This document shows positions 19,928-30,361 of a stretch of DNA of 64,000 bases, piece by piece. Both the position numbers and the translations under genes were made by a program. The stretch's first letter is position 1, and every line of letters starts with the position of its first letter. This DNA is from Planctomonas sp. JC2975 (GTDB lineage: Bacteria > Actinomycetota > Actinomycetes > Actinomycetales > Microbacteriaceae): positions 2,666,001 through 2,730,000 of the forward strand of contig NZ_JABEKS010000001.1 of the NCBI RefSeq assembly GCF_012985205.1. Reading direction: 5' to 3'. The notes beneath the pieces are model-generated. The model saw only the letters and a list, made by a program, of their open reading frames with translations, made no database searches and was not told the origin of the DNA.

Positions 19928-20345
19928 GGGGAATCGATCGTGACGGCGCCGGTCGGCGGTGATGGAAGAAGGTCGTTTGCGGGAGATAGGGCGTGGCATC
20001 CGCTCCGCCCGCGACCCGGACGGCCGTCGGAACCCGGGCGGCCGTCCGAGACGGGTTGCGGACTGTGCCCGCCACGGCGCCCCCGCCGTTGCGGTGCACG
20101 GACGCGGTAACCGCAACTCACCGGAGGATGAGTCTGATGGATCGATTCGAGACGTTCGCGTTCTCGAATCGATTCGACCGCGTCTTTCGCCTAAGCTAGC
20201 GAATCGGATGCCGACCGTCAAGACGACAGGTGTCCGCGGCTCGCCCGCAGTCCGGTGTGCGAGACGTGCCCGCCGTCCGTTGGGCGGCATCCATGCATCC
20301 GGCCGATGACGCGCACCCGCGGATCGGCCGCACGAAGGGAGTCGG
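19928..20345. other. 418-bp divergent intergenic region between MFS and LacI genes
   Basis: No credible gene is present. The left part (19,928-20,100) is plain GC-rich sequence. At 20,141-20,201 it is AT-richer and holds a cluster of TCGATTCGA-type palindromes. The LacI gene has a good GAAGGGAG ribosome site at its end. Confidence 0.6.
20141..20177. promoter_or_regulatory. LacI-family operator cluster
   Basis: ATCGATTCGAG (20141-20151) and CTCGAATCGAT (20163-20173) are perfect 11-bp inverted arms 22 bp apart centre to centre, and the right arm is part of a 14-bp perfect palindrome TCGAATCGATTCGA (20164-20177). A palindrome with central CG is the classic LacI/GalR operator shape. It most likely binds the adjacent LacI protein. 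Confidence 0.7.
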
Positions 20346-21449
20346 ATGCCCGATCACGATTCCAGCCGCCCGACCCTCGCCGACGTCGCCGCGAAGGCCG
20401 GCGTCTCGGCGTCGACCGCGTCGCTGGCGTTCAGCGGATCCGGTCCGGTCGCAGAGTCCACCAGGGAGCGCGTGCTCCAGGCCGCGAGGGATCTGCACTA
20501 CGCCGGTCCCGACCCGCGGGCCAGGTCGCTGCGCCGAGGGCGCTCCGGCATCATCGGCGTCGTCATCGAGGAGCGGGTGCGCGAGGCGTTCAGGGACCCG
20601 ATCGCCATCGCCCAGTTCGACGGCCTCTCCGAGGAGATCGGCCACATCGACGCTGCGCTGCTGATCCTCGCGGCCGCGGGTCCCGCCCAGCCGCTGGCCG
20701 GCGTGAAGGCGATGCCGTCGCAATCGACCCAGGCGGTCACGGTGGAGGACGCCCCGATCGATGCCGCGGTACTGATGGGATGCTCGCCCCGGCTCGCCGA
20801 CAGCATCTCCGCACTGCGCAACCGGGGCCTGCCCGTCGTGGCGATCGAGGGATACCCGGCGGACGGCATCCTGGTGATCGAGCAGGACAACAAGGATGCG
20901 ACCGAGCGCGGTGCCAAGCACCTCGAGCAGCTCGGCCACGAGCGGGTAGCGATCGTCACGTTGCCGCTCGACCTGTTCCACCACCGGGGGTTCGTCACCG
21001 ACGAACTGCTCGCGATCAGTTCGTCTGCAACGGCGCTGCAGCGGCTGGAGGGCGCGCGCGCGATCTTCCCGGATGCCCCTGCCTACGCCGCCGCCGGAAG
21101 CTACGTCGACGAAGGACGCCGTGCAGCGCGCGAGATCCTCTCCGTGCCGCCCCAGGACCGGCCGACCGCGATCATCGCGCAGAGCGATCTGCTCGCCGTC
21201 GGAGTGATCCGGGCAGCTGAGGAGCTGGGCATCTCGGTTCCCGACGAACTGAGCGTGATCGGCTTCGACGGCGTGCGTGTCGACGGGTTGTGGCCGTACG
21301 AGCTCACCACGCTCGAGCAGCCGGCCTACGAGAAGGGTCGGGCTGCAGGGCGCGCGATCGTGCGGATGCTCGCCGGCGGCGAGGCGGAGCCCGTCGCGTT
21401 CACGAGCGTGCTCCACGTCGGCAACACGACGGCGCCGCCCCACCCCTGA
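20346..21449 (+). CDS. LacI/GalR family transcriptional regulator
   Basis: 367 residues. The N-terminal HTH reads TLADVAAKAGVSASTASLAFSGSGPVAESTRERVLQAARDLHY (about 10-52), followed by a periplasmic-binding-like domain ending GVRVDGLWPYELTTLEQPAYEKGRAAGRAIVRML. The hinge-helix region carries RARSLRRGRSG. The ATG at 20346 has GAAGGGAG upstream. It is divergent from an MFS transporter and is the likely repressor of it; the ligand is unknown. Confidence 0.93.
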   Translation: MPDHDSSRPTLADVAAKAGVSASTASLAFSGSGPVAESTRERVLQAARDLHYAGPDPRARSLRRGRSGIIGVVIEERVREAFRDPIAIAQFDGLSEEIGHIDAALLILAAAGPAQPLAGVKAMPSQSTQAVTVEDAPIDAAVLMGCSPRLADSISALRNRGLPVVAIEGYPADGILVIEQDNKDATERGAKHLEQLGHERVAIVTLPLDLFHHRGFVTDELLAISSSATALQRLEGARAIFPDAPAYAAAGSYVDEGRRAAREILSVPPQDRPTAIIAQSDLLAVGVIRAAEELGISVPDELSVIGFDGVRVDGLWPYELTTLEQPAYEKGRAAGRAIVRMLAGGEAEPVAFTSVLHVGNTTAPPHP

Positions 21450-21515
21450 CCGTCCGCCTCGTCACTCTGCCCGTACCCCGCGCCGTGGGCGCGTTCCGCG
21501 CACCCTCTCGCGAGA

Positions 21516-21669
21516 GTGCCCGATTCCTCCGCCCCAGGGTGCCCGAACCTCCTCCCGAGAGTGCCCGAATCTCCGCGCGAGAGTGCCCGATTCTCCGCGC
21601 GAGAGTGCCCGATTCTCCGCGCGAGAGTGCCCGAATCTCAGCGTGAGGTGCCCGAATCTCCGCGCGTGA
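21516..21669 (+). repeat. 22-bp minisatellite array 1 (7 copies), downstream of MATE and LacI genes
   Basis: Seven units begin with GTGCCCG at 21516, 21539, 21561, 21583, 21605, 21627 and 21648; spacing is 22 bp except 23 for the first and 21 for the sixth. The unit continues as AATCTCCGCGCGAGA or GATTCTCCGCGCGAG. Degenerate half-copies flank it. It fills the convergent gap between lacI and the MATE gene. Since 22 is not a multiple of three and no start or ribosome site fits, it is not coding. Confidence 0.9.
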
Positions 21670-21687
21670 GTGCACAAATCCGCTCGG

Positions 21688-23010
21688 TCAGGCGCGGACG
21701 GCGCCCGTGACCACCCAACGGCTGCCATGGGCCCGCACGCCGAGGGTGACGGCGCGAGCCCCGAGGTATCCGAGCGCGAATGCCAGTGTCAGCCACGAAA
21801 GCGCGTGGCTACCGCCGAACGCGACCGCCAGCCACGCCAACGGCACGAAGACCGCGAGGTTCGCTAGGCCCGTCGCGGCGAGGTAGCGGGCGTCCCCGGC
21901 CCCGATGAGCACGCCGTCGAGCACGAACACGTAGCCGCCCAGCGGCGTCGTGGCGCCGAGGATCGCCAGCGGTACGGGGAGCAGAGCCAGCACGTCCGGG
22001 TCGGTCGTGAAGACCCATCCGAACACCGGACTGATGGCGATCAGCAGCACGCCGACGACCGTGCCGCCGCCGACGCCCCACCACAGACACCGTCGGAGCA
22101 CCGCGCGAACGGACTCGAGATCCCCGCGGCCGAGATCCCGTCCGATGAGAGCCTGAGCAGCGATCGCCAGCGCGTCGAGCGCCAGCGCCACAGCGTTGTA
22201 GACGGCCATTGTCACCTGCCAGGCGGCGAGGGCATCAGACGAGATATCCGTCGCGAGGAAGACGGCGAGCACGATCGCGGCCCTCAGGCTCGCGGTGCGC
22301 AAGAACAGCCACCAGCCCGTTCCGGAGAGTCCACGGATCCCGGCCATCCGTGCGCGCAGCGACGCGCCGACGCGTCGCGCGTGCCGCACGGCGACGCCGA
22401 GGTAAACGGCGGCCATGCCCCACTGCGCGATCACGGTTCCGACCGCCGATCCCTCGACGCCGAGTCCGACTCCGTAGATGAAGACGCCGTTCAGCGCGAT
22501 GTTCGCCGCGAAGCCGCCGGATGCCACCCACAGCGGTGTGCGCGTGTCCTGCAGTCCGCGCAGCAGACCGGCAGCCGCATACACGATGAGCATCGCCGGC
22601 AACCCGGCCATGGACACCGTGAGATAGACGGATGCCGGCTCCGCGACATCCTGCTGCGCCCCGAACAGGCCGACCAGGGTCGGGGCCAGCGCCGCGCCGA
22701 CGACCGCGAGCACGACTCCGATGCCTGCCGCGAGCCACATCCCGTCGATGCCCGCTTCGACGGCCTCGCGCTCGCTACCCGCGCCGAGACGCCGCGCAAC
22801 CGTGGGCGTCGTGCCGTAGGCGAGGAACACCATGAGCCCGACGATCGTCTGCAAAATGGCGCCCGCGATGCCCAGGGCTGCCAGCGGAGCGGATCCGAGG
22901 TGGCCGACCATGGCGGAGTCGGCCAGCAGGAAGAGGGGCTCCGCCACCAGAGCGCCGAATGCCGGGATCGTCAGCCGCATGATCTCGCGGTCGATGGCGC
23001 GGCGGGGCAT
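21688..23010 (-). CDS. MATE family efflux protein (DinF-like)
   Basis: 440 residues with about 12 membrane segments in two MatE halves. The first half contains IPAFGALVAEPLFLLADSAMVGHLG and the LVFLAYGTTPTVARRLGAG segment; the second contains AAWQVTMAVYNAVALALDALAIAAQALIGRDLG, both hallmarks of MATE antiporters of the DinF type. It exports drugs or other organic ions in exchange for Na+ or H+. The gene is bracketed on both sides by related 22-bp repeat arrays, which in its transcript would be complementary to each other. Confidence 0.9.
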   Translation of the reverse strand: MPRRAIDREIMRLTIPAFGALVAEPLFLLADSAMVGHLGSAPLAALGIAGAILQTIVGLMVFLAYGTTPTVARRLGAGSEREAVEAGIDGMWLAAGIGVVLAVVGAALAPTLVGLFGAQQDVAEPASVYLTVSMAGLPAMLIVYAAAGLLRGLQDTRTPLWVASGGFAANIALNGVFIYGVGLGVEGSAVGTVIAQWGMAAVYLGVAVRHARRVGASLRARMAGIRGLSGTGWWLFLRTASLRAAIVLAVFLATDISSDALAAWQVTMAVYNAVALALDALAIAAQALIGRDLGRGDLESVRAVLRRCLWWGVGGGTVVGVLLIAISPVFGWVFTTDPDVLALLPVPLAILGATTPLGGYVFVLDGVLIGAGDARYLAATGLANLAVFVPLAWLAVAFGGSHALSWLTLAFALGYLGARAVTLGVRAHGSRWVVTGAVRA

Positions 23011-23081
23011 CCCACGACTGTATCCGCGGCCGGGAGGACGCGAGTCCTACGCACGAGACCAGACGCGGCGAGCAGGGTTTC

Positions 23082-23279
23082 GCACTTTGGGGCGTAGGTA
23101 CGGGCACTGTGGGGCGTAGGTACGGGCACTGTGGGGCGTAGGTACGGGCACTTTGGGGCGGAGGGACGCACACCCTGGGGAGGAGAAACGGGCACTTTCG
23201 GAAGGAGGAACGGGCACTTTCGGGAGGAGGAACGGGCACTTTGGGGAGGAGGGACGCGCACCCTCGGGAGAGGGCGTTG
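23082..23279 (-). repeat. 22-bp minisatellite array 2 (8-9 copies), upstream of MATE and ABC genes
   Basis: Units start at 23082 and repeat every 22 bp exactly through 23257, with a degenerate ninth copy. The plus-strand unit is GCACTTTGGGG plus CGTAGGTACGG, drifting to GCACTTTCGGG plus AGGAGGAACGG. Read on the minus strand the core GTGCCCG is the same as in array 1, so the two arrays are related and inverted. It occupies most of the 369-bp gap between two divergent genes; no gene is seen in this gap. Confidence 0.9.
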
Positions 23280-23343
23280 CGGACGGCGGGGGAGAAGAGG
23301 AATATCGGCGTTCGGTACGGCCGTTAGCGTTCCGTTAGGAAGA

Positions 23344-23379
23344 TTCACAATTTTGTGAAACGAGCGTAATGTCACGCTC
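23344..23379 (+). promoter_or_regulatory. Promoter with 16-bp palindromic operator for the ABC exporter
   Basis: A perfect palindrome, TTCACAA-TT-TTGTGAA (23344-23359), overlaps a -35 TTCACA (23344-23349) that is 17 bp from a -10 TAATGT (23367-23372). The ATG follows at 23380, seven bases after the -10, so the transcript would be leaderless. A second short inverted repeat GAGCGT/ACGCTC spans the -10. A dimeric repressor here would block RNA polymerase; the GbsR/MarR-type gene at 26107 is the nearest candidate. Confidence 0.75.
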
Positions 23380-24321
23380 ATGACCTCAGTGATAGAGACC
23401 CGGGGACTGCTCAAGCGGTTCGGACGGGTCCACGCTCTCGACGGACTCGACCTCACGGTGGGGGAAGGCGAAGTACACGGCTTCCTCGGGCCGAACGGCG
23501 CAGGCAAGTCCACCACCATCCGCGTGCTGCTCGGGCTGATCCGGCCATCGGGCGGTGAGGCGAAGGTCTTCGGCGAAGACCCGTGGGGCAAGGCCAGCCG
23601 TCTGCACGAGCGGATCGCCTACGTCCCGGGCGACGTCGCGCTCTGGCCGAACCTGACCGGCGGCGAGACCATCGATTTCATGGCTCGGCTGCGCGGCGCG
23701 GACACGCGCTCGTCCGACTACAAGCAGCGTCGCGCCCGCCTCGTGGAGGCATTCCAGTTCGACCCGCGCAAGAAGGCGGGCACGTACTCCAAGGGCAACC
23801 GGCAGAAGGTGTCCCTCATCGCGGCATTCGCGGTGCCCGCGAGCCTGTACATCCTCGACGAACCCACCAGCGGCCTCGACCCCGTGATGGAGGCCGTGTT
23901 CTCGGAGGAGGTCGAGAGCATCAAGAGGAACGACGGCGCGAGCATCCTGCTCTCCAGCCACATCCTCTCCGAGGTGGAGGCGCTCTGCGATCGGGTGACC
24001 ATCATCCGCGCGGGAGCCGCCGTCGAGTCCGGCAGCCTCGCAGACCTGCGCCACCTGACCCGCACCGAGGTGTCGTTCCTCGCCGAAGGCGTCGAGCTCG
24101 CCTCGGTCGAGGCCATCCCCGGAGCGCACGACGTTACCGTCGAATCCGACCGCATCCACTTCACCGTCGACAGCTCGGAGGTCGCCGCAATGCTCCCGTC
24201 GCTCGGCGCACTGCACGTGCAGGCGCTGACCGTGACGCCTCCGTCACTGGAAGAGCTGTTCCTGCGGCACTACGGCGACGAGATCACGGCTGCGGACAAC
24301 TCGCTGGAACGGGTCTCGTGA
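23380..24321 (+). CDS. ABC exporter ATP-binding protein (multidrug/polyketide-antibiotic type)
   Basis: 313 residues. Walker A is GPNGAGKSTT near residue 40, Walker B is LYILDEPTSGLDP and the switch His is in LLSSHILSEVEALCD. The signature is YSKGNRQK where LSGGQ is usual, a variant common in actinobacterial drug ABC-2 ATPases. The C-terminal 80 residues form a DrrA-like regulatory tail. It overlaps the permease gene by one base (TGATG) and should form a complex with it. The start ATG is preceded by a promoter at leaderless spacing. Confidence 0.92.
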   Translation: MTSVIETRGLLKRFGRVHALDGLDLTVGEGEVHGFLGPNGAGKSTTIRVLLGLIRPSGGEAKVFGEDPWGKASRLHERIAYVPGDVALWPNLTGGETIDFMARLRGADTRSSDYKQRRARLVEAFQFDPRKKAGTYSKGNRQKVSLIAAFAVPASLYILDEPTSGLDPVMEAVFSEEVESIKRNDGASILLSSHILSEVEALCDRVTIIRAGAAVESGSLADLRHLTRTEVSFLAEGVELASVEAIPGAHDVTVESDRIHFTVDSSEVAAMLPSLGALHVQALTVTPPSLEELFLRHYGDEITAADNSLERVS

Positions 24322-25937
24322 TGAGTGCGACAGCAGTACTCCTCCGGTTCCGGTTGCGCCGCGACCGAATACTCGTCCCGGTCTGGGTCGTCGTCATGGC
24401 GTTCAGCGTGCTGTTCGTCGCAGCGGCGCTCGCCTCCACGTACAACACCGAGTCGTTGCGGGTGGCCGTCATCAGGCTGGCCAGCGTCGATCCGACGCTG
24501 CTTGCGCTGCGCGGGGACCCCGACGGGCCGTCGGCCGGCTCGTTCTTCGTGATGGAGATCGGCGCCTACCTCCTCATCCTCGTCGGCTTCATGAACACGT
24601 TCCTCGCCGTGCGGCACACGCGTGCCGACGAGCAGGCCGGACGCGCCGAGCTCGTCCTCGCCACGCGGGCGTCGCGTCCGTCGATGACCGCTTCCACGCT
24701 CATGCTCGCGGTCATCGCCAACGTGGGCGTCGGACTGTTCGGCGCGCTCGCCGCGATGGCGACCGGATACGACGTCCCTGGCTCCATCGTGCTCGGCTGG
24801 GCGCTCGCCACGACGGGCATGGCGTTCTTCGGCATCGGGCTCCTGTTCGGCCAGATCTTCTCCACCTCGCGTGCGGCGAACGGATGGGGCTCAGCGGCCG
24901 TCGCGTTCTTCTGGGTCGTTGCCGCAGCCGGGAACGCTGCAGGCAAAGTCTCCAGCGACGGATTGCACGTGACGCCCGGTGCCGCCATCTGGTTCACGCC
25001 CATCGGATGGGGTCTGCGCACCCTCCCGTACACGCAGAATCTGTGGTGGCCGGGTCTGCTGAGCCTGGCGCTCGCCGCCGTGCTCATCGTCGTGTCGGTG
25101 CTCCTGCAGGGTGTGCGCGACACCGGCGCGGGACTCGTCGCGGCGCGGCTCGGGCGAGGAACGGCATCCGCCGTGCTGCGTGGCCCGATCGGACTGGCAT
25201 GGCGGCTGCAGCGCGGATCGATCATCGGCTGGGGCATCGGCGCGGTGCTCGGCGGCGCCGCCATCGGAGGCCTTGGCAAGACGCTCAACGACAGCATCAG
25301 CCAGAACAAGGACCTGTCGAAGGCGATCGACGAGATGGGCACAGGACACGGCACCGTGTTCGAGGTGTTCATCGGCGTGATGATCGCGCTGATCGGACTG
25401 GTGGTGGCCGGTGCCGCCATCCAGACGGCCATGCGGATGCGTCAGGAGGAGGCCGCGACGACCGCGGAGCTCGTGCTGGCCACGCCCGTGTCGCGACTGC
25501 GCTGGTTCCTGTCGTACGTGATCGTCGGGCTGGTGGCATCCGCCGTCATCCTCACGGTGGCCGGGATCGTCGCGGGAAGCGCCCTGGCGACCATCGATCA
25601 GAGCCTCGTCGGACAGACGATCCTGCTCTCGATCGCCCAGCTGCCTGCCGTTGCCGTGTACATGGGGGTCACCGCCCTCGTGTTCGCCGTGATCCCGAAG
25701 CTCACGATCGCCGCCGGATGGATCGTGTTCGGCGTCGGCGTCGTGCTCGGCGAGTTCGGCAGCCTGCTGAACCTGCCTGACTGGGTGCGACAGGTGGCGC
25801 CGACCGCACACACGGCCGTTCCGCCGATGTCGTCCGCCGACTGGAGCGGAACCTGGTGGCTCATCGGGATCGCCGTGGTCGCCTTCGCCCTCGCGGCGAT
25901 CGTGTTCACGAGGCGGGGGTTGGTATCGCAGTCCTGA
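24321..25937 (+). CDS. ABC exporter permease, 12-TM fused type
   Basis: 538 residues. Two homologous halves, each with about six membrane segments, are visible: RADEQAGRAELVLATRASR in the first and RQEEAATTAELVLATPVSRLRWFLSY in the second, both with the E-x-G/TAELVLATP loop of ABC-2 permeases. Actinobacterial proteins of this type are called polyketide antibiotic transporters; the substrate here is unknown. The ATG shares its A with the stop of the ATPase. The open frame begins much earlier, inside the ATPase gene, but that part is a frame shadow. Confidence 0.9.
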   Translation: MSATAVLLRFRLRRDRILVPVWVVVMAFSVLFVAAALASTYNTESLRVAVIRLASVDPTLLALRGDPDGPSAGSFFVMEIGAYLLILVGFMNTFLAVRHTRADEQAGRAELVLATRASRPSMTASTLMLAVIANVGVGLFGALAAMATGYDVPGSIVLGWALATTGMAFFGIGLLFGQIFSTSRAANGWGSAAVAFFWVVAAAGNAAGKVSSDGLHVTPGAAIWFTPIGWGLRTLPYTQNLWWPGLLSLALAAVLIVVSVLLQGVRDTGAGLVAARLGRGTASAVLRGPIGLAWRLQRGSIIGWGIGAVLGGAAIGGLGKTLNDSISQNKDLSKAIDEMGTGHGTVFEVFIGVMIALIGLVVAGAAIQTAMRMRQEEAATTAELVLATPVSRLRWFLSYVIVGLVASAVILTVAGIVAGSALATIDQSLVGQTILLSIAQLPAVAVYMGVTALVFAVIPKLTIAAGWIVFGVGVVLGEFGSLLNLPDWVRQVAPTAHTAVPPMSSADWSGTWWLIGIAVVAFALAAIVFTRRGLVSQS

Positions 25938-28711: not shown

Positions 28712-29683
28712 ATGCCGCGACGGGGGGAGCAGCATCCGTCTTACGTCCGCACGTCGATGAGGAATGACCAGATCGTGAGCGCTCCCGTCCAGGGTTCTGA
28801 ACGTCGAGCCAGGCACAACGGGGGCCGCCGCGGCAAGCACCGCGGCCACGAGCCGGGCGAGAGTTTCAGCCGCGGATTCGCAGCGCTCGGCGAACTCGCA
28901 CTGGCGGGAGTGCAGGTCTCGGCGCGCGCCGTCGACCTCGCCACCGGAGCCGTGCTGTTCTCCGTCGACGACCACGTGGTCATGCCGACGGCGTCGATCG
29001 GCAAGGTGCTGCTGCTCATCGAGCTGGCGGCACGTCTGGAGTCCCGCGAGACGAGCTCGCTCAGCCTGGTCGATCGCACCCAGTCGGATGCCGTGGCCGA
29101 CTCGGGCATCTGGCAGCACCTCGCTGCTCCCTCCCTTCCGCTCGCCGACCTCGCGGCGCTGGTCGGTGCGACCAGCGACAACCTCGCCACCAATGTGCTG
29201 CTGCGTCGCATCGGACTCGCCTCCGTGCGCGTTCGCACCGAGCAACTCGGCCTGAAGCACACGGCGATGCTGGATCTCGTGCGCGACCATCGCGGACCGG
29301 ATGACGCACCGCAGCTCTCGGTAGGAAGCGCCAAGGAGCTCACCTGGCTGTTCTCCGCACTGGCAAGGGGAGAGGTGGTCGACGCCGCAACGAGCAAACG
29401 GGTCATCGGCTGGCTCTCGCTCGGTCACGACCTCTCGATGGTGGCCAGCGCGTTCGGACTGGATCCGCTTGCGCACCGCGCACCCGATCACGGATTGCTG
29501 CTCGTCAACAAGACCGGCACGGATTCCGGCGTGCGCGGCGAGGTCGGCGTTCTCCGAGGTCCGCGCGCGGGCGTGGCGTACACGGTGTGCACGGCGTTCG
29601 ACGACACGGATCTGTCCGCGCGGCTCGCTGTGCTGGACGGCATGCGGGCGGTCGGCCGCGACCTGCTCGACTACGTGCACTGA
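28712..29683 (+). CDS. Serine beta-lactamase-like protein (class A fold)
   Basis: 323 residues. The active-site set is present: Ser 95-x-x-Lys 98 in PTASIGK, Ser 155-Asp-Asn in TSDNLA and Lys 267-Thr-Gly in NKTGTD. A clear ExxLN omega loop of true class A beta-lactamases is not seen. The first 45 residues are polar and Arg-rich with no signal peptide, so the protein may be cytoplasmic or a peptidase/esterase relative. I chose the ATG at 28712 because GGAGGG lies seven bases upstream; an earlier ATG at 28694 lacks a site. Its stop codon is the first three bases of an 80-bp repeat. Confidence 0.8.
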   Translation: MPRRGEQHPSYVRTSMRNDQIVSAPVQGSERRARHNGGRRGKHRGHEPGESFSRGFAALGELALAGVQVSARAVDLATGAVLFSVDDHVVMPTASIGKVLLLIELAARLESRETSSLSLVDRTQSDAVADSGIWQHLAAPSLPLADLAALVGATSDNLATNVLLRRIGLASVRVRTEQLGLKHTAMLDLVRDHRGPDDAPQLSVGSAKELTWLFSALARGEVVDAATSKRVIGWLSLGHDLSMVASAFGLDPLAHRAPDHGLLLVNKTGTDSGVRGEVGVLRGPRAGVAYTVCTAFDDTDLSARLAVLDGMRAVGRDLLDYVH

Positions 29684-29920
29684 CGACTGAGGCGAGAGCC
29701 GAGCGAGCTTGCTCGCTCGGCCGAGTCGATGGAGTCAGTCGAGCGCTGTACCGCGACTACTGACGACTGAGGCGAGAGCCGAGCGAGCTTGCTCGCTCGG
29801 CCGAGTCGATGGAGTCAGTCGAGCGCTGTACCGCGACTACTGACGACTGAGGTGAGCGTCGAGCGAGCTTGCTTGCTCGGCCGAGTCGATGGAGTCAGTC
29901 GAGCGGCGCACCGCGACTAC
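29681..29920. repeat. Three tandem copies of an 80-bp structured repeat
   Basis: Units start at 29681, 29761 and 29841. The first two are identical over 80 bp; the third differs at about ten positions. Each holds an inner stem of 10-bp arms (CCGAGCGAGC, GCTCGCTCGG) and an outer stem CGACTGA/TCAGTCG. In copy 3 the inner stem is kept through a G-T wobble. The first three bases of copy 1 are the stop of the beta-lactamase-like gene. This is a REP-like palindromic element; it may terminate or stabilise transcripts. Confidence 0.95.
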
Positions 29921-30361
29921 TGACGGGGCTGCGCCGACCGCTTCAGGCCCGATCGGGCGCGGCGGTCCGGTTGGTGTCGATAGTGCAGAGTGCCTTAGCG
30001 TCCGGGCATATGCCCGAGCCGGAATACTCGGCGACCCGACCGCCGTCGACCGGCCTCGGACGGACGGACCCGGGGTCCTGGACGATGTTTTCGGCACGCG
30101 CTTTTCCGGGTGTCCGACGCGGCCCGACGCTCCCGGATCCCGCTCGCCGTCTACTGACTCGGAGTCAACACGACCCGGACGAAGACGGCCGGATCTGCAC
30201 GGAACGTGGCCGTGCGACCGTGTAATCACTTTGTAAAGATTTGGCACAATGCCTGCCCGATCCGTTGCGGCGCGTGAGAACACTCGTCTACGGTTCTTGA
30301 ACATTGCAACCGTGTAATACGGGGCCCGACACCCCGGCACAGACGCGTGAAAGGCATTTTC
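29921..30361 (+). promoter_or_regulatory. 441-bp leader/promoter region of the liv operon
   Basis: No gene with coding character is seen. It holds two perfect palindromes, GCCCGATCGGGC (29947-29958) and CGGGCATATGCCCG (30003-30016), and a direct repeat ACCGTGTAAT at 30217-30226 and 30309-30318. DNA from about 30,215 is AT-richer. TAATAC at 30315-30320 is a candidate -10 without a good -35. The long spacer suggests activator or repressor control of the uptake operon. Confidence 0.45.

Follow-up and report, generated by a model that had tools for sequence, protein, structure and literature searches.

Two 22-bp arrays around a MATE gene

The window, the whole 64,000-nucleotide stretch of DNA that was analysed, corresponds to C1:2666001-2730000 of the source genome (G000; 4.36 Mb in 11 contigs). 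The features of the locus, in window coordinates, are as follows.

20346-21449, + strand: LacI-family regulator gene, left neighbour (Pfam LacI and Peripla_BP_3)
21516-21669, + strand: array 1, seven GTGCCCG units, lying in the convergent gap past the 3' ends of the LacI-family gene, whose sense orientation it shares, and of MATE
21688-23010, - strand: MATE exporter gene, bracketed by the arrays (Pfam MatE, E 4e-44)
23017-23022, - strand: leaderless-like candidate -10 element of MATE, TACAGT, at 6 nt before the start codon, proposed from its conservation
23082-23279, - strand: array 2, nine GTGC-type sites, GTGCCCG on this strand, between the start codons of the divergent MATE and ABC genes
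23380-24321, + strand: ABC transporter ATP-binding gene, right neighbour (Pfam ABC_tran)

TRF placed array 1 at 21509-21680 (period 22, 7.8 copies) and array 2 at 23082-23261 (period 22, 8.2 copies). The seven GTGCCCG copies of array 1 start at 21516, 21539, 21561, 21583, 21605, 21627 and 21648, in steps of 23, 22, 22, 22, 22 and 21 bp. GTGCCCG pairs at 22-bp spacing, with up to two mismatches, numbered 19 in the window, whereas 100 shuffles averaged 3.2 and reached at most 9. The two arrays account for 12 of the 19. These results bear out, far above chance, the reading of the first-pass annotation that two 22-bp arrays on opposite strands enclose MATE as the sole gene between them. A separate tandem repeat is present at 29679-29925 of the window: 3.1 copies of an 80-bp unit, with 95% matches, and a palindrome inside it (GAGCGAGCTTGCTCGCTC).

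MATE copies 83-87% identical to that of the window were found in all four genus-mates (G001 to G004). The LacI gene adjoins MATE in all four and the ABC gene in three (the exception is G002), and the order LacI-MATE-ABC is kept in G001, G003 and G004. Between 21400 and 23420 no sigma-70 consensus site was found, and the search for intrinsic terminators (GC-rich hairpin plus T run) gave 0, compared with 0.7 in shuffles; an Rfam search of 20300-24400 gave no match up to E 1. Inspection by eye showed that the position of the candidate -10 element, at the same distance, reads TACAGT in G001 and G003, TACGTT in G004 and TACTGT in G002. Because TACAGT is conserved before the MATE start codon, array 2 is likely to lie upstream of the MATE promoter and outside the MATE mRNA. 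Just before the ABC gene, at 23344-23359, there is a palindrome, TTCACAATTTTGTGAA, conserved with minor differences in G001, G003 and G004, which is likely to be an operator.

The MATE-locus gaps of G001 (by scan) and of G002, G003 and G004 (by eye) held no 22-bp array. The simpler reading is that the arrays at this locus were gained in the line leading to the window; alternatively, there may have been a loss. The LacI-MATE gap that holds array 1 in G000 holds in G002 an unrelated repeat of the GGTTGAGCTTGTCGAAACC type (L126, 1260-1500), and this gap is a single acceptor site for two repeat families. We also considered whether the arrays could be the ends of mobile gene cassettes. This idea was rejected for MATE, which is present in five of five genus genomes and adjoins LacI in relatives without arrays, and for L079, where the bracketed gene occurs in G001 with one of its two arrays.

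A dispersed family with a conserved core and a free spacer

A search of the rest of the genome, as the first-pass annotation had proposed, showed that the MATE pair is one of many. The pattern GTGCCCG-15-GTGCCCG occurred 97 times in G000, the reversed pattern 0 times, and each of the other 98 genomes held at most 3. We counted 51 arrays of at least two units in 36 stretches plus the window, and 0 in reversed controls; the arrays are dispersed over four contigs and 36 of the 37 stretches, L071 holding none. Many other genes also adjoin arrays in G000, and a special link between the arrays and MATE is not supported. Among the matches listed, about 690 kb of G000 contig C1 (62600-753300) is without an array and later parts of the contig have one array per about 100 kb; in G001 none is listed between about 130 kb and 1380 kb.

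We then asked how widely the family occurs. The looser pattern of four GTGC copies at 22-bp intervals had 135 matches in G000; the genus-mate G001 had 6, and 24 of 398 family genomes matched in all, several via other 22-bp repeats, while the core pattern matched three of the 398 (G000 107, G001 16, G042 1). A sequence-only profile built from 47 three-unit stretches, with at most 150 candidates scored per genome, gave at least 147 matches in G000 and at least 33 in G001; of the remaining genus-mates, G003 had one marginal match (E 0.009) and G002 and G004 had 0. At E 1e-5, and with stricter filters and 13 candidates scored per genome, which made this search much less sensitive, G000 (20) and G001 (11) alone matched among the 398 family genomes. 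In a species-genome collection, from which the window's own or very near genomes are possibly omitted, there was one pattern match in Microbacterium lacus SDZm4, and this genome gave 50 profile matches. The median identity to G000 of matched genes above 55% was 63% for M. lacus (n = 15) and 82% for G001, as taken from the fetched stretches alone and with some M. lacus matches perhaps not orthologues, so that M. lacus seems far from G000. The family is present in two genus-mates, G000 and G001, and in M. lacus, and with matches in so few family genomes it is therefore patchy. The array sets of G001 and M. lacus have diverged from that of G000. A BLAST search of plasmids and phages with one 504-bp array pair (low-complexity filter on) and a search of viral contigs with one exact array pattern gave no match, and searches of the open-access PMC literature brought up no paper whose title or opening abstract lines concerned this family.

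For G001, the G000 motif found 10 arrays in 15 stretches and 0 in the control, and a core scan of 36 loci found 26 arrays, compared with 7 in the control. The spacing, column and pair analyses of G001 used core-scan arrays with a top score of at least 11, and site mapping used all 26. A G001-specific motif was over-iterated (126 arrays, compared with 19 in the control) and was dropped.

The unit has a nearly constant length. In G000 258 of 271 steps were 22 bp, and in M. lacus, with 98 units, 67 of 71 steps were 21 or 22 bp, in agreement with the earlier suggestion that spacing matters. The claim that copies drift but keep the period also stood as made, with the refinement that the drift is uneven: the core is kept and the spacer is free. 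In M. lacus neighbouring units mismatched in 0-19% at the core columns CGARRGTGCCCGTT and in 0-18% at the GTGCCCGTT columns. For the step counts, for these mismatch values and for the column comparison of G000 and G001, units were found via motif similarity (in G001 via the core scan), which inflates core conservation to some degree. The CGA triplet, which lies outside the search anchor, mismatched in 1-6%, and five spacer columns in 43-61%. This analysis covered 27 of the 33 M. lacus arrays: L185, L187, L192, L193 and L196 (long called ORFs) and one unfetched array were left out, and the pairs of L188 and L191 were kept, although they lie within called ORFs. When G000 arrays were cut blindly every 22 bp, the mismatch among 268 neighbour pairs was 12% in the core, compared with 27% in other columns. 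Column conservation correlated between G000 and G001 (rho 0.62, p 0.002), and the core consensus is CGARRGTGCCCGTT in M. lacus and about CGAnnGTGCnnnTTYC across the three genomes.

In G000 unit identity was 81% between neighbours (lag 1), fell slowly to 77% at lag 6, and was 72% between different arrays. Neighbouring units were thus the most alike, and the columns did not all drift alike, as they would under simple slippage. The spacer is free in sequence and fixed in length, as phased protein sites predict and slippage does not. A test of hairpins or pairing within the unit, with 13 column pairs compared with shuffles, gave no consistent signal: 12 of the 13 were below z 2, one reached z 3.3 (an effect of 1.3 points) and one z -3.2.

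Gene context, inward facing and turnover

Genes in the stretches were called with a codon-usage script made for this analysis. The 51 G000 arrays lie in convergent (32), tandem (16) and divergent (3, including array 2) settings. Arrays occupied 24 of 101 convergent gaps, compared with 16 of 406 other gaps (odds ratio 7.6, p 6e-9), an enrichment that is a relative figure because the stretches were chosen for holding arrays. The first-pass annotation had reckoned that random scatter without a conserved period, or loss of the period in close relatives, would speak for simple slippage, and the outcome was mixed: the arrays are dispersed, yet enriched in convergent gaps, and the period is kept in two other species, whereas the MATE locus of four genus-mates lacks arrays. 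In M. lacus 32 of 33 arrays could be classified (8 convergent, 20 tandem, 4 divergent), and several of them overlap a called ORF.

In G000 42 of the 51 arrays lie in sense orientation 3' of a gene, 32 of these in convergent gaps. As a main rule, sense-3' orientation is weakened because in convergent gaps either orientation counts as sense, and in tandem gaps sense arrays numbered 10, compared with 6 that are not, one of the 6 lying within a gene (in M. lacus 9, compared with 11).

The mutual orientation of neighbours followed a strict pattern. Opposite-strand neighbours at most 3 kb apart all face inward, in 14 of 14 cases in G000, 12 of 12 in M. lacus and 2 of 2 in G001, and no outward-facing pair was seen among neighbours within this distance in the three genomes. 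Fifteen neighbouring pairs in G000 comprised 14 with + then - and one with both on the - strand; those of G001 comprised two and one, respectively. Half of the 14 inward pairs in G000 are spaced 31-151 bp and half 537-1595 bp, with MATE within one of the wide pairs, and 9 of the 12 in M. lacus are spaced 7-71 bp. One M. lacus pair (L188, 7390-7511) falls within the ORF of an ABC transporter; judged from Pfam positions, it occupies the linker that joins the membrane and ATPase domains.

We also asked whether arrays keep their places. The site comparison covers 18 of the 51 G000 arrays, the other 33 being not fully mappable to the fetched G001 stretches. Twelve of the 18 have no array at the G001 site (9 gaps), five have one in matching orientation (4 gaps), an outcome favoured by the choice of 15 of the 35 G001 stretches on account of their matches, and one lies within a gene in both genomes. 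Two partly mapped cases outside this count, L081/L143 and L075/L136, look shared by eye. Identity between arrays at matching sites was 0.573 (8 pairs, including the two by-eye cases), compared with 0.547 between unrelated arrays. Matching-site arrays are hardly more alike than unrelated ones, and therefore place, core and period can outlast the sequence of the unit, which turns over.

The array within a gene lies in a gene of L067 (2777-5326) with Pfam matches to Radical_SAM and CofH_C, which by our reading is fbiC-like. The array is present in G000 and G001 and not in G002-G004; between two conserved motifs the protein has 56 residues in G000 and 55 in G001, compared with 27 in G003 and 23 in both G002 and G004. 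It occupies what we take to be the place expected for the second cysteine cluster of FbiC proteins, and no second cysteine cluster was seen in the aligned stretch of the protein from the five genomes (L067 and L199-L202). The protein had a single Radical_SAM match in G000 and G001, the two genomes tested.

Gaps of G001 carry other inverted elements (L164, 14520-14790 and 16230-16580; L167, 7710-8100; L123, 2830-2960; L151, 16080-17400). These include GTCGCGATTTTCGCCCTTATG palindromes and, at two places, GCAGGATATG..ATATCCTGC sites. The arms of one G001 palindrome hold GTGCCCGTTCC or a close form, which is part of the 22-bp array core.

Possible roles of the arrays and comparison with known systems

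We tentatively favour, with a probability of about 0.4, the explanation that the arrays are tandem, helically phased sites at gene boundaries for a putative sequence-specific DNA-binding protein. Each unit would be one site with the core CGARRGTGCCCGTT or CGAnnGTGCnnnTTYC, and sites two helical turns apart (21-22 bp) would align the bound proteins on one face of the DNA. A bound array would work directionally as a boundary, for example a roadblock or an insulator that prevents the transcription of a gene from running into its neighbour. At the MATE locus, array 1 would keep the transcription of LacI and MATE apart, and array 2 would do likewise for the two divergent promoters, those of MATE and ABC. 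We infer from sequence that a protein may account for the constraint on the core, that it would act on DNA and not on RNA, and that the boundary role would be directional. The result that weighs most is the combination of a constrained core with a spacer free in sequence but fixed in length, repeated in two-turn steps; together with the inward pairs, it favours a directional protein-binding array. The persistence of some arrays at the same G001 gene ends, despite differing unit sequence, also appears to argue for protein sites, as do the enrichment in convergent gaps and the correlated column conservation of G000 and G001. Against them stand the positions, which are often not conserved (12 of the 18 comparable arrays have no counterpart in G001), the absence of matches in G002 and G004 with one marginal match in G003, and the unbiased orientation in tandem gaps of M. 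lacus. Some arrays lie inside coding genes, and this argues against a roadblock, which should do harm there.

The main rival, close in probability to protein sites and in our view a real possibility, is a neutral or selfish dispersed repeat, whose short units reach new sites, grow in number by slippage and are retained mainly at places where they are nearly harmless, such as convergent gene ends and protein linkers. It would account for the array-free MATE locus of the four genus-mates, the unrelated repeat in the same LacI-MATE gap of G002, the in-gene array of the Radical_SAM/CofH_C gene confined to two of five genomes, the 12 of 18 comparable sites not common to G001, and the patchy occurrence (2 of 398 family genomes at E 1e-5 under strict filters, plus M. 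lacus). However, slippage and drift alone predict neither strict inward facing nor a core that is conserved next to a spacer free in sequence but fixed in length, and Y1_Tnp, the REP-associated transposase, was found in 0 of 5 genus genomes and in 5 of 14 control genomes. That the arrays act on RNA as terminators, their C-rich, poorly structured transcripts loading Rho (rut-like) and stopping transcripts from both sides in the gap, we consider unlikely. The GTGC strand of G000 arrays is C-rich: C minus G is +0.115 in 51 arrays, and 250 other 3' flanks average +0.006. As RNA this strand folds weakly (-0.286, compared with -0.416 kcal/nt). The C-richness is, however, weak in G001 (+0.048, with other 3' flanks at +0.019), and M. 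lacus lacks it (+0.002). The review PMC12288462 states that Rho-dependent termination dominates in mycobacteria and that M. tuberculosis Rho recognizes purine-rich sequences, so that composition is a poor test of Rho either way. The strict 21-22 bp phasing is unexpected for Rho, and the sense orientation of 42 of 51 arrays, which agrees with it, is partly automatic in convergent gaps and reduced to 10 versus 6 in tandem gaps.

Pairing of the arrays as RNA or cruciform DNA, giving a hairpin or an RNase III site, or the 5'-3' pairing around MATE that the first-pass annotation had proposed for the MATE mRNA, is very improbable. Long, imperfect stems could form between close inward pairs (7 of 14 in G000, 9 of 12 in M. 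lacus), but the two arms of a pair resemble each other no more than unrelated arrays do (0.724 vs 0.721, p 0.37) and the pairing signal within the unit is not consistent. The conserved -10-like TACAGT, moreover, points to a transcription start downstream of array 2, which would then likely lie outside the mRNA in which it would have to pair.

The protein-site explanation can be extended to a wider and more doubtful proposal: that directional phased protein arrays mark gene boundaries chromosome-wide in some Microbacterium-like bacteria, as an insulator system that has a dedicated protein and spreads between species as short DNA. Because the arrays face inward, transcription would meet them in one and the same polarity whichever side it came from. 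To our knowledge, few protein-based boundary elements have been described for the ends of bacterial genes, and if a protein binds the arrays, they would show how directional boundaries arise and spread. Even if neutral, they are a clear-cut example of dispersed repeats that combine inward pairing and strict two-turn phasing with constraint on the core, in a family that occurs in two genus-mates and M. lacus and hardly or not in three other genus members.

Several known systems share part of this organization. In plasmid iterons, direct repeats that share a conserved core follow each other at about two helical turns, and a single protein binds them cooperatively; they sit at an origin beside the rep gene. 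The arrays described here are likewise direct repeats at about two helical turns with a conserved core; unlike iterons, they are dispersed over the chromosome, not placed at one origin, and their opposite-strand neighbours face inward. REP and BIME elements are extragenic, often at gene ends, and patchy between species, and they are short palindromes tied to Y1 transposases. Our arrays resemble them in being extragenic, often at gene ends and patchy, but lack a consistent palindrome signal within the unit, and Y1_Tnp is missing from the five genus genomes. The MIRU-VNTR of mycobacteria are, like the present arrays, interspersed tandem repeats in an actinobacterium, with units longer than those of the 22-bp arrays; we know of no inward pairing or two-turn phasing among them. 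The TAACTGA repeats of Beggiatoaceae and others are described in PMC4679880 as dispersed short direct repeats, patchy in distant taxa, with no evident spreading mechanism and thought to be binding sites; the unit is 7 bp and lies mostly directly upstream of start codons. The arrays resemble the TAACTGA repeats in being dispersed, patchy, putative binding sites, and differ from them in their 21-22 bp unit, their location mainly between gene ends and their inward pairing.
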